Positions 7,793-64,000 of a stretch of DNA of 64,000 bases are shown here, one piece after another. Source of the DNA: Akkermansia muciniphila (lineage in GTDB: Bacteria > Verrucomicrobiota > Verrucomicrobiia > Verrucomicrobiales > Verrucomicrobiaceae). The DNA lies in assembly GCA_945863205.1 (NCBI GenBank), contig CAMAZK010000002.1, forward strand, positions 1 through 64,000, read 5' to 3'. Position numbers and translations under genes: made by a program. The notes under the pieces were generated by a model that saw only the letters and a program-made list of their open reading frames with translations, did not search any database and had not been told where the DNA came from. How positions within the stretch are numbered: position 1 is the stretch's first letter; each line of letters opens with the position of its first letter.

Positions 7793-7801
7793 GAGGATGG
7801 A

Positions 7802-7883
7802 GTAGCTTCGATTGGCAATCGAAGTGGTTTGGGTGGGGGCGTGAAGAAGGAGCCGTATGGCTTCGATTGCCAATCGAAGCTAC
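7802..7883. repeat. Inverted pair of GTAG-CTTCGATTGGCAATCGAAG hairpins (BIME-like)
   Basis: gtagcttcgattggcaatcgaag at 7802-7824 and its reverse complement at 7861-7883. Confidence 0.9.
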
Positions 7884-8785
7884 AAGAGGCCGAGGGCGGC
7901 GAGTCTTTCGCGAATGATCTCTCTTTCTGCATCGCGGAAACGATGGAAGGGCTCGGCCATGTGGTCTTCGCAGATGCCGAGGAGGCTGAGAGCGCACTTG
8001 AGGCCTTTGATGATGGCGCTCTTGTGCTTGCCGACGGTGTAGATGGCTCCGGCGAGCTGCATGACCTGCGCGTGAAGCTCCCGGGTGCGCTTCAAATCCT
8101 GTGCGGCGGCGGCTTGATACATCTCGACGTAGAGCTTGGGATGCAGATTGGCACCGCCATTGATGCCGCCGTGGCCGCCGAGCAGCACGGCCTCGGCGGT
8201 GAGCTCTTCCGGGCCTACAAGCACGCTCCAATCCTGGCGCTGCTTGGCGACTTCGATCAAGCGGTGGAAGTAGATCATGTCGCACGAGCTGTCTTTGACG
8301 CCGCAGACGCCCGGCATGTCCAAAGCTCGTCGTACGAGGTCGATCTCGAAGCTGACCTTCGTCAAACCGGGCATGTTGTAGAGAAACAACGGCAGCGGCA
8401 TCTCAGCGACGAGGTCCTGCACATACTCGAGCATCTCCGGCGGCGCGGCGGGGAAGTAATACGGCGGCGCGAGCACCACATGCGTCGCGCCGGTGTCGGC
8501 GGAGTACTTCGCGAGGTTCACGCTTTCGGTGAAGGAGGTGTCCGTGATGCCGACCAGCACGGGCACGCGGCCCTTTGCGAGCTGGCAGGTCTTTTCGATC
8601 AATTCACGCCGCAGGCGGTAACTGAGGCTGGGGCCTTCGCCGGTGGTGCCGAGAATGAAGAGGCCGGAAACGCCGCCGCTGATGAGATGCTCGACGAGCC
8701 GCTCCAAACCGGCGATGTCGAGAGTGTCGCGATCACGCAAAGGTGTGACGAGAGGCGGGATGATGCCGGAGAGCGGTTGGGACAT
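7880..8785 (-). CDS. DapA/N-acetylneuraminate lyase family protein
   Basis: SGIIPPLVTPLRDRDTLD, GTTGEGPSLS, YNMPGLTK, GVKDSS Schiff-base region. Confidence 0.9.
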   Translation of the reverse strand: MSQPLSGIIPPLVTPLRDRDTLDIAGLERLVEHLISGGVSGLFILGTTGEGPSLSYRLRRELIEKTCQLAKGRVPVLVGITDTSFTESVNLAKYSADTGATHVVLAPPYYFPAAPPEMLEYVQDLVAEMPLPLFLYNMPGLTKVSFEIDLVRRALDMPGVCGVKDSSCDMIYFHRLIEVAKQRQDWSVLVGPEELTAEAVLLGGHGGINGGANLHPKLYVEMYQAAAAQDLKRTRELHAQVMQLAGAIYTVGKHKSAIIKGLKCALSLLGICEDHMAEPFHRFRDAEREIIRERLAALGLL

Positions 8786-21060: not shown

Positions 21061-21196
21061 CCCGCAGGGCGGGAATGACGAAACCAGAATGCAGAATGAC
21101 GAATGAATGCCCCAAGCTCCAATCGCCACCTGAATTCCTGTTCGTCATTCGTGCTTCGGATTTGATTCGTCATTCGCCATTCTGATTTCGTCATTT
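21061..21196. repeat. GAATGACGAATG/CATTCGTCATTC repeat element
   Basis: Multiple direct and inverted AATGACGAA units; starts with palindrome cccgcagggcggg; second copy at 33010. Confidence 0.85.
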
Positions 21197-60652: not shown

Positions 60653-61570
60653 ATGATCAAACTCACAGGCATCGCAGACGAAGCAGGCGCGTCCCTCGAC
60701 GTGCAAATTCAGGCCCACCAGGAACTCCGCTGGGACAGCATCGAATCCCGCGGGGTCGAAATCGACGGTGTGAAGGGCAACCTGCATGAAATCCCCGACG
60801 CCGTCTTCGACAAGGTCGTGGCGCGGCTCGAAGAAAAAGGCATGAAGATCTGCGGCTTCGGCTCGCTCATCGGCAACTGGGCCAAAAAAATCACCGACGA
60901 CTTCAGCGTCACCGAAGCCGAAATCGCCCGCGCCATTCCCCGCATGCAGCGGCTGGGAGCCAAGCTCATCCGCGTCATGAGCTACGCCGTGTGCAAGGAC
61001 GACGGCGGTGCCGATCTCGAAGAGCAGTTCGCCTTGGAGCGCATCCGGCGCATGAACGAAATCAACAAGCGCTTTGCCGATGTCGGGCTCACCGTCGTCC
61101 ACGAAAACTGCATGAACTGGGGCGGCATGAGCCCCACCTACGTGCAGCGCATGGCCGAGGCCGTGCCCGGCATGAAGTGGGTCTTTGACACCGGCAATCC
61201 CGTCTTCATCGACGACCGCGACCGCCCCGGCCACAAGCAGGACGCCTGGGAGATGTACCAGGCCGTGAAGCCCTTCATGGCCCACGTCCACGTCAAAGAC
61301 GGCATCTGGGACAAGGTGAAGAACGACGCCGTTTACACCTATCCCGGCGAAGGCGAAGGCCAGACCGAGCGCATCATGAAGGATCTCGTGGACACTGGCT
61401 ACGAAGGCTACATCAGCATCGAGCCGCATGTCGCCGTCGTCTTTCACGGCGCCGGCGCCGCTGATGATCTTTCCCCCGAGCAGAAGGCCAAGGAGCAGTA
61501 CGACAGCTACGTCAAATACGGTCGGATGCTCGAAGCCATGCTCCAGCGCGTCGGTGCGAAACTGGCGTGA
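60653..61570 (+). CDS. Sugar phosphate isomerase/epimerase
   Basis: IKLTGIADEAGASLDVQIQAHQELRWDSIESR; VHENCMNWGG; HVHVKDGIW; GYISIEPHV. Confidence 0.9.
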   Translation: MIKLTGIADEAGASLDVQIQAHQELRWDSIESRGVEIDGVKGNLHEIPDAVFDKVVARLEEKGMKICGFGSLIGNWAKKITDDFSVTEAEIARAIPRMQRLGAKLIRVMSYAVCKDDGGADLEEQFALERIRRMNEINKRFADVGLTVVHENCMNWGGMSPTYVQRMAEAVPGMKWVFDTGNPVFIDDRDRPGHKQDAWEMYQAVKPFMAHVHVKDGIWDKVKNDAVYTYPGEGEGQTERIMKDLVDTGYEGYISIEPHVAVVFHGAGAADDLSPEQKAKEQYDSYVKYGRMLEAMLQRVGAKLA

Positions 61571-61703
61571 TTTCCGGGGCTGAGGGCGGCGGAGCGGCAC
61601 TGCACGCTCCGCGCTATGGATGGGAAGTCCCCGCGTCATCATCGCGACACGGGCGTTTCTCCATTTTCGCTTCTCACCCGCCGCTCGTCGGCTACATAGC
61701 CCC

Positions 61704-62924
61704 ATGCGCATCCTCCACACTGCAGACTGGCATCTCGGCGCCCGGCTCGTTGAGCGTGACCGCTTGCCGGAGCACGCCGCCTTTCTCGAATGGCTCATCG
61801 AAACGCTCCGCATCGAAAAAATCGACGCGCTGATCGTCAGCGGCGATGTCTTTGATGCGGCGAATCCTCCGCAGGATGCTGTCGCGCTCTACTTCGACTT
61901 CTTGAAGCGCCTCGCCGACCTCAAAACGGTGCAGGCCGTCATCACCGGCGGCAACCACGACTCCGCCTCCCACCTCAACGCGCCGCGTGAGTTGTTGAAA
62001 CGCTTCGACGTGCATGTCTTCGGCCACGCGGGCGAAAACAACGTCGTCGATCTCGGCGGAGCTGTCGTGGCCGCCGTGCCGTTTTTGCGCGAGCGCGACC
62101 TCCGCCAGTCCGCAGCCGGTGAGACGATCACCGCCGTGCACGAGCAGGTCCGCGCCGCCATCCGCGCCCACTACGCCGCGCAGCTCACCGCCTGTCGCGA
62201 CCTCGCGCAGGGCCGCCCCGTCATCGCCATGGGCCATCTCACCGTCCTCGGCGCCACCACCAGCGACAGCGAGCGCGACATCCACATCGGCAACCTCGGC
62301 GCCGTCGGTGCGGACCTTTTTGAAGGCTTCGACTACACCGCCCTCGGCCACCTCCACCGCCCGCAACGTGTCGCCGGCAACGAAACCATCCGCTACAGCG
62401 GCTCGCCCATCGCGCTCAGCTTCTCCGAGGCCGCCGATGCCAAGTCCGTCGTGATCATCGAGGCGGCAAAGACTCACACCGCAGAGGTAGAAACGCCGCA
62501 GAGTTCAGAATCACAAAACTCATCTCTGCGGCGTTCCAATCTCTGCGGTGTAAAACTTCTGCCAATTCCCGTCACCCGCGCCCTCATCCGCGTGAAGGCA
62601 AATCGCGCCACCCTCGCCGCCGATCTCGCCAACGTGCCCGCTGGAGCCTGGGCCGAGGTCACCGTGAAACTCGACGTCCCCGAGCCCGATCTCGACCGCC
62701 AGGTCCGCGAAGCCGTCGCTGGCCGTTTCGAGGTATTAAAAGTCCTCGCCGATCTCCCCGCCACCGCCGCCACCCCCTGGCAACCCACCGGCCCCGCCCT
62801 CCACGACCTCCAGCCCCGCGATGTCTTCCGCGAGCTGCTCCAGGAAAAGCAGATCGCAGGCGAGGAACTCAGCGCCGTGTTTGATGAGCTGCTGGCCTTG
62901 AGGGAGCAGCAGATCACCACTTAA
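61704..62924 (+). CDS. sbcD: Exonuclease SbcD
   Basis: MRILHTADWHLGARL, ALIVSGDVFDAANPP, VITGGNHDSASHLN, GHLHRPQRV. Confidence 0.93.
   Translation: MRILHTADWHLGARLVERDRLPEHAAFLEWLIETLRIEKIDALIVSGDVFDAANPPQDAVALYFDFLKRLADLKTVQAVITGGNHDSASHLNAPRELLKRFDVHVFGHAGENNVVDLGGAVVAAVPFLRERDLRQSAAGETITAVHEQVRAAIRAHYAAQLTACRDLAQGRPVIAMGHLTVLGATTSDSERDIHIGNLGAVGADLFEGFDYTALGHLHRPQRVAGNETIRYSGSPIALSFSEAADAKSVVIIEAAKTHTAEVETPQSSESQNSSLRRSNLCGVKLLPIPVTRALIRVKANRATLAADLANVPAGAWAEVTVKLDVPEPDLDRQVREAVAGRFEVLKVLADLPATAATPWQPTGPALHDLQPRDVFRELLQEKQIAGEELSAVFDELLALREQQITT
62476..62551. repeat. In-frame nested palindromic repeat within sbcD
   Basis: acaccgcagag..aacgccgcagag....ctctgcggcgtt..ctctgcggtgt, both arms perfectly inverted. 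Confidence 0.92.
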
Positions 62925-62939
62925 CTTCGATGTGAGATC

Positions 62940-63461
62940 ATGAACGTTGTCCCCATCGAACTAATCGAGCAGTCCATTGCCATCATCGGCCGAACTGGAG
63001 TCACTGAAAACGAGATTGAATCGGAGGTCCTAGCCTTGGCTCAGGACCAAATGCTCGCACGCAGGCTGATCGACTGTGTTCCTGAGGCTTTTGGAATCGT
63101 CTTGGCGGCACATGTCTCGTCCGAGTTGATTTTGCCCACAGAGTTCTCAGCAAAAACGAATCAAGGCGAATGGGGGTGGTTCAAATTCGAGGTTGAGCCA
63201 GTTTTCGGCACTGCCTTCAAGCTTGCGCAGCAAATGTTCCACCATGGAACCAGAGAGGTGTTTCAAAACATCGCAGTGCGAAGCGCTATGCTCAACACGG
63301 TTAATAACCTTCTCAATGCGGGAGGAAAAATCGAAGGAGCCGTGCTGAGCGGCCCAGTCATGCTGGGAATTCCCGCCGAACTCTATCCCAAGCCAAAGAA
63401 ATCTCTGATCGAACGATTCTTTGCATGGCGCTTGGCTTGCATGCGAAAAACAAAATCTTAA
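62940..63461 (+). CDS. Hypothetical protein between sbcD and sbcC remnants
   Basis: 173-aa ORF, no recognised motif. Confidence 0.5.
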   Translation: MNVVPIELIEQSIAIIGRTGVTENEIESEVLALAQDQMLARRLIDCVPEAFGIVLAAHVSSELILPTEFSAKTNQGEWGWFKFEVEPVFGTAFKLAQQMFHHGTREVFQNIAVRSAMLNTVNNLLNAGGKIEGAVLSGPVMLGIPAELYPKPKKSLIERFFAWRLACMRKTKS

Positions 63462-63471
63462 ACACACTTTC

Positions 63472-63606
63472 ATGCGCCTTCTCGCCGTCCGACTCCAAAA
63501 TCTCAACTCGCTTAGCGGGACACATGAGGTGCGGTTCGATGTGGCGCCGTTGAGCGCGGCGGGGGCGGGGAAATCGACGCTGCTGGATGCGATGACGCCA
63601 ACCTGA
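63472..63606 (+). pseudogene. Truncated sbcC 5' end, copy 1
   Basis: MRLLAVRLQNLNSLSGTHEVRFDVAPLSAAG(AGKSTLLDAM)TPT-stop; part of the Walker A region missing, then stop. Confidence 0.75.
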
Positions 63607-63835
63607 GGCCTCGAGCCGGAGGCTCGAAAGACATCAGCTGGCGGTGCAACCACCGGAAACACGCCGACACCCTTCCATCTGCCGCTGCGCCGTGGGAGGG
63701 GGCGAATACGCAACGGCCATCGAACGCTTCTCGCGCTCCCTCTGGGGCGCGGTGGCTTGGGCGCGGTGGGTGGCCTCGAAACCGGTGGTTGCACCACCGG
63801 CTAACTTCTTGCGAGCCTCCGGCTCGTGGGGCACA
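63604..63835. repeat. Cluster of palindromes between sbcC remnants
   Basis: cctcgagccggaggctcg, ggcggtgcaaccacc, ccggtggttgcaccaccgg, cgagcctccggctcg. Confidence 0.7.
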
Positions 63836-63876
63836 GTTGACGCTGGCCTTGATCGCCACATCAGGCCAGTTCCCCC

Positions 63877-63993
63877 GTGCGCCTCTTCGCCGTCCGACTT
63901 CAGAATCTCAACGGGTTCAGCGGGACACATGAAGTGCGGTTGGATGAGAGAGGGGTGAGCGCGGCGGGGGATAAAAGTAGTGCGGGGCTCTAG
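63877..63993 (+). pseudogene. Truncated sbcC 5' end, copy 2
   Basis: VRLFAVRLQNLNGFSGTHEVRLDERGVSAAGDKSSAGL-stop, close match to copy 1. Confidence 0.75.
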
Positions 63994-63998
63994 CCCGC
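63977..63998 (+). repeat. GTAG-foot hairpin GTAG-T-GCGGGGCTCTAGCCCGC
   Basis: Direct reading; begins exactly where similarity to sbcC copy 1 ends and supplies the stop. Confidence 0.75.
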
Positions 63999-64000
63999 CA

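Follow-up and report, generated by a model that had tools for sequence, protein, structure and literature searches.

How does the gene for a hairpin-cleaving nuclease come to carry a palindromic repeat in its own reading frame, and has the one anything to do with the other? The gene in question, sbcD, lies on the plus strand of the 64,000-nucleotide stretch of Prosthecobacter DNA analyzed here (the window), at positions 61704 to 62924, and is intact, with 406 codons for amino acids. Profile matches identify its product as SbcD (TIGR00619, 208 bits, together with PF00149 and PF12320), and its orthologues support a start at 61704 (MRILHTADWHLG) rather than at 61620. The repeat, a 76-nucleotide element of a family that we call A, occupies positions 62476 to 62551 of the same strand and codes for residues 258 to 283. 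We favor, at a probability of roughly 0.7, a reading in which it is a non-autonomous palindromic element associated with GxxExxY genes that is tolerated as a neutral loop of the protein.

The coordinates, the two perfect pairs of inverted arms and the translation given in the original prediction are all borne out on re-reading the sequence, as is the claim that the frame runs unbroken through the repeat. Specifically, the outer arms (11 bp; ACACCGCAGAG at 62476 to 62486 and CTCTGCGGTGT at 62541 to 62551) enclose the inner arms (12 bp; AACGCCGCAGAG at 62492 to 62503 and CTCTGCGGCGTT at 62524 to 62535), which are separated by a loop of 20 nucleotides at 62504 to 62523. The result is an interrupted palindrome in which 25 of 28 positions pair over 28-nucleotide arms. 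This is the joint best value of the window in a scan for palindromes with 28-bp arms, whereas the best values in five shuffled windows are 19 to 20 pairs, with none above 20. As single-stranded DNA, the element folds with -26.7 kcal/mol (z -9.5), and as RNA with its flanks the z value is -8.7. Comparison of positions 61500 to 64000 with Rfam gives zero matches.

Alignment of 35 sbcD genes, from the Prosthecobacter MAG of the window and 34 others of its clade (outgroup G049 included), reveals empty and filled sites at a single codon, immediately after those for D-T-Q. A plain beta-turn (DTQG-MKIETL and close variants) is present in 16 of the 35 genes, all from the genus, and the site is near-plain or otherwise short in G006, G028 and G049. 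Full family A elements occupy it in seven species (G000, G008, G015, G016, G057, G058 and L077, the last a MAG labelled P. debontii), and an eighth (G005) carries only the right half. Seven other genes (G010, G032, G043, G044, G045, G056 and G059) hold an unrelated palindrome, family B, whose best-kept copies read CATTCTCCTGTCCCCATTCTCCTGTC...GAATGGGGACAGAAGAAT and whose arms stand here in the order opposite to the usual intergenic form, a point against the favored reading. In G040 the site holds a dimer resembling a GTAG REP, the only insert that resembles this class; the dimer (locus L278) is edged by a possible direct repeat, GACACGCAAGACCTC / GGACTCGCAAACTC. All seven family A copies are 76 nucleotides long, share one frame without a stop codon, have a 20-nucleotide center (14 to 23 nucleotides elsewhere) and keep an identical or near-identical outer left arm.

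The original prediction had proposed such an alignment as a check, with conservation of the segment in distant homologues as the opposing outcome; the more remote SbcD homologues that were inspected lack it. Judged from these alignments, the 76-nucleotide segment is an insertion into sbcD. Because some sister species have an empty site and others hold an A, B or REP-like palindrome there, the SbcD loop appears to have been invaded repeatedly by mobile-type DNA. As part of the favored reading, the turn would be a permissive site that has been occupied, lost or exchanged time and again while the gene was never broken.

Evidence from the protein is consistent with such tolerance. Residues D8, H10, D48, N84, H85, H178, H216 and H218 are invariant among 30 SbcD homologues, and the fold of an AlphaFold model (pLDDT 86) agrees with that of E. 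coli SbcD. In the model, residues 258 to 283 connect strands 248-254 and 280-287, and pLDDT falls below 50 at 258 to 275, such that placing the insert on the structure, as had been suggested, locates it at a low-confidence hairpin tip between two strands. The predicted structure indicates that the insert is probably the disordered tip of a beta-hairpin. For the rest of the gene, dN/dS is about 0.2 throughout (0.20 in carriers of A, 0.19 in carriers of B and 0.17 where the site is empty), against 0.64 for the insert. Since the fold is kept and dN/dS differs in this manner outside and inside the insert, SbcD is probably functional despite the insertion, and the insert itself is probably under weak constraint. 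We propose that a mobile-type but non-autonomous family A element inserted in frame in sbcD of a Prosthecobacter ancestor or relative. Given its open frame, it is presumably read through as about 26 residues that would form the disordered tip of the beta-hairpin closing the nuclease domain, with normal purifying selection continuing to act on the active site and the remainder of SbcD.

Family A is not confined to sbcD. Its CCGCAGAG boxes recur across many Prosthecobacter genomes, with copy numbers between a few and dozens and with matches in 16 of 28 genomes searched (Prosthecobacter only) and a maximum of 43 matches per genome. The consensus of 32 copies is ACACCGCAGAG-nnn-GGAACG-CCGCAGAG, 14 to 23 nucleotides, and CTCTGCGG-CGTTCC-nnn-CTCTGCGGTGT; put more briefly, the element reads ACACCGCAGAG-nnn-GGAACGCCGCAGAG, 14 to 23 nucleotides and then the reverse complement. 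Most of the copies sampled are intergenic, a sample that consists of best matches and hence gives no genic fraction. Among copies outside sbcD, 104 of 156 frames are open, compared with 37% in shuffles. The genome of the window itself, in which the lack of another copy would have spoken against a repeat, contains a second full copy at C274:6654-6725 (83%) and a half copy on C41. At one locus in another genome (L187, G013:C168, about 2221-2560), four family A half elements lie in tandem, 105 bp apart.

Other genes carry these palindromes in frame as well, which rules out sbcD as the sole gene affected. An AraC-type regulator in G057 contains family A in the same frame as sbcD, with a near-identical peptide (RTAEAGTPQSSDPENESLRRSILCGG versus HTAEVETPQSSESQNSSLRRSNLCGV). 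This insert is absent from AraC orthologues, because their matches cover residues 2-112 and 150-326 with few bases between them, and residues 113-149 are missing. Family B lies within open reading frames with Pfam domains, namely two DUF1592/1588 proteins (between the domains), an FAD oxidoreductase and a SASA esterase.

The resemblance in principle to Rickettsia palindromic elements (RPEs) that the original prediction had noted is thereby strengthened: family A occurs between genes and in frame in unrelated genes (sbcD, AraC), and relatives lack it in the gene concerned. RPEs are an established class (Ogata et al., 2000, 2002), and the passages on them in two reviews (PMC2229807, PMC10969869) likewise describe palindromic repeats, intergenic and in frame in unrelated genes, that encode a recurrent peptide compatible with function. 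By this analogy, family A appears to work like the RPEs, yet it is probably not one of them. As described there, RPEs measure about 105-150 nucleotides rather than 76 and belong to another phylum; the likeness drawn here is one of the way of working. Family A differs further in its association with a GxxExxY gene and in sharing one site of one gene with other families.

This association suggests how the element might move. Family A halves border fused double GxxExxY genes at two loci (L176 and L177), a full copy adjoins another such fused gene (L158), and family B halves border one in the window's own genome (L326). The GxxExxY proteins scanned match PF13366 (PDDEXK_3), and the place of the gene at L158 is a TIGR04256 match. 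We propose that the family A halves act as inverted ends of cassettes with a GxxExxY (PD-(D/E)XK-like) gene and, because the element halves form such ends, that the 76-mer most likely represents a miniature version of the cassette from which the gene is missing. Depending on the species, the sbcD turn would then be occupied by either of two palindrome families of the GxxExxY type or by one REP-like dimer. Flanking inverted repeats are found at 28 of 46 GxxExxY loci and at 0 of 111 random open reading frames, and the aligned GxxExxY flanks that were inspected mostly contain two or three tandem units of 7-13 nucleotides that vary by locus. At the other 18 of 46 loci no flanking repeats were detected, and some are present at 13 of 27 Y1 transposase genes; therefore, flanking alone is no proof of mobilization. 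From this flanking we infer that the GxxExxY protein or its partners may mobilize family A, although the gene may also be a passenger. Comparison of empty and filled family A sites in sbcD reveals no clear target-site duplication. A literature search for PDDEXK_3 with inverted repeats, in which GxxExxY papers were represented by title and abstract, found none. A far broader proposition, that GxxExxY (PDDEXK_3) proteins mobilize an extensive, hitherto undescribed group of palindromic elements with ends of tandem 7-13-nucleotide units and that the sbcD turn is favored for landing or survival by the action of SbcCD on such hairpins, strikes us as unlikely. Many of the GxxExxY genes at L197-L226, L317-L336 and L347-L348 are flanked by locus-specific inverted repeats of tandem short units, and a palindrome of AATGACGAAT-type units at 21077-21192 of the window is of a design akin to them.

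Family A might instead be a REP element that, as in Opitutus terrae, owes its movement to a RAYT (Y1) transposase. These Prosthecobacter genomes do contain many Y1_Tnp genes, and the G040 insert resembles a GTAG REP dimer, whereas the family A consensus has neither a GTAG nor a CGTC tag and no pair of its boxes lies beside 30 Y1_Tnp loci. We rejected this source for want of any association with Y1_Tnp loci and regard it as very improbable. Intragenic REPs of the GTAG/CGTC type are an established class (Di Nocera et al., 2013; PMC3733652). The passages on them describe in-frame palindromes, in replication genes and often in DNA-repair genes, and high numbers in Opitutus terrae (Verrucomicrobia), as well as two Xanthomonas recB genes hit by different REPs at about the same site, much like the sbcD case; these passages do not name sbcD. 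Families A and B differ in lacking the tags, and none of the Y1 transposase genes examined is flanked by their boxes. An inverted dimer in the window at 7800-7884 (GTAGCTTCGATTGGCAATCGAAG) is GTAG REP-like.

Like the bacterial MITEs ERIC and Correia/NEMIS (PMC2229807), family A is short, non-autonomous, bounded by inverted ends and fused in frame to genes, and its ends recur on an element that carries a gene (L176, L177; for family B, L326). In contrast to those MITEs, its putative autonomous partner is a GxxExxY gene of the PD-(D/E)XK-like kind rather than a known transposase; a clear target duplication was not seen. The best-known in-frame palindromes come from Rickettsia and from REP-rich genomes; new here are untagged, GxxExxY-associated palindromes and three families at one sbcD site. 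For the machinery behind a widespread type of inverted repeat in bacteria, the GxxExxY link supplies a candidate that can be tested.

In a tree of sbcD computed without the insert, empty, A and B states are interleaved, with A/B sister pairs G010/G057, G058/G059, L077/G045 and G016/G043 (support is weak for some). One-clade topologies are rejected for A and for B carriers (AU p 3e-5 and 4e-161, respectively), which excludes a single vertical origin of either. It is possible, if less probable in our estimation, that each family inserted once in an ancestral sbcD and then spread by short-tract recombination between species instead of by repeated transposition. The family A copies in sbcD share a 20-nucleotide center ending in CTCAT, TTCAT or ACAT, unlike most other copies, and family B inserts diverge in step with their host genes (r 0.86, p 0.003), as such a history would predict. 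However, divergence among family A inserts does not follow that of the genes (r -0.10), the AraC copy has the same center length and peptide as the sbcD copies, and no flanking site or 90-nucleotide window divides A from B carriers; a recombination tract around the insert was rejected on this last ground. Given the interleaving, the lack of a separating window and the untracked divergence of A, family A at least seems to have been gained or exchanged more than once, or to have had its arms rewritten in place.

The stem is well maintained. In the seven family A copies, 94.4% of cells are paired, and changes on both sides of a pair number 8, compared with 2.9 in shuffles and 0-3 in slid controls. 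Selection for a hairpin, arm-to-arm template switching or the arrival of different subtypes could each explain this upkeep. The first of these relates to the suggestion that a hairpin is notable in the gene of a hairpin-cleaving enzyme: palindromes might be kept in sbcD since SbcCD cleaves or binds hairpins, with feedback on its own gene or mRNA. The paired changes and the presence of three unrelated families at one codon of a hairpin-nuclease gene are in keeping with this idea, and the recurrence is more striking than the original prediction was aware of. Yet intact SbcD without any insert is present in many relatives, and the same palindrome families are also carried in frame by genes that have nothing to do with hairpins or repair. 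Moreover, a palindrome of less than 80 bp with a 20-nucleotide loop is probably a poor target of SbcCD in vivo. A permissive loop accounts for the recurrence of three families, so self-targeting is unnecessary; nothing found requires a special link to hairpin cutting, which we judge improbable.

Several unrelated families at one codon provide a ready-made set of natural variants (empty, A, half A, B and REP-like) that bears on what determines where coding palindromes survive and on whether SbcCD deals with a hairpin carried by its own gene. Several insert carriers have a long sbcC frame. In the genome of the window, sbcC is split over contigs, with parts on C326 and C239. Downstream of sbcD, the 5′ end of sbcC occurs twice in truncated form, at 63473-63606 and from 63877 to the end of the window (continuing to about contig base 64130), the second copy being interrupted by a GTAG-type REP dimer.
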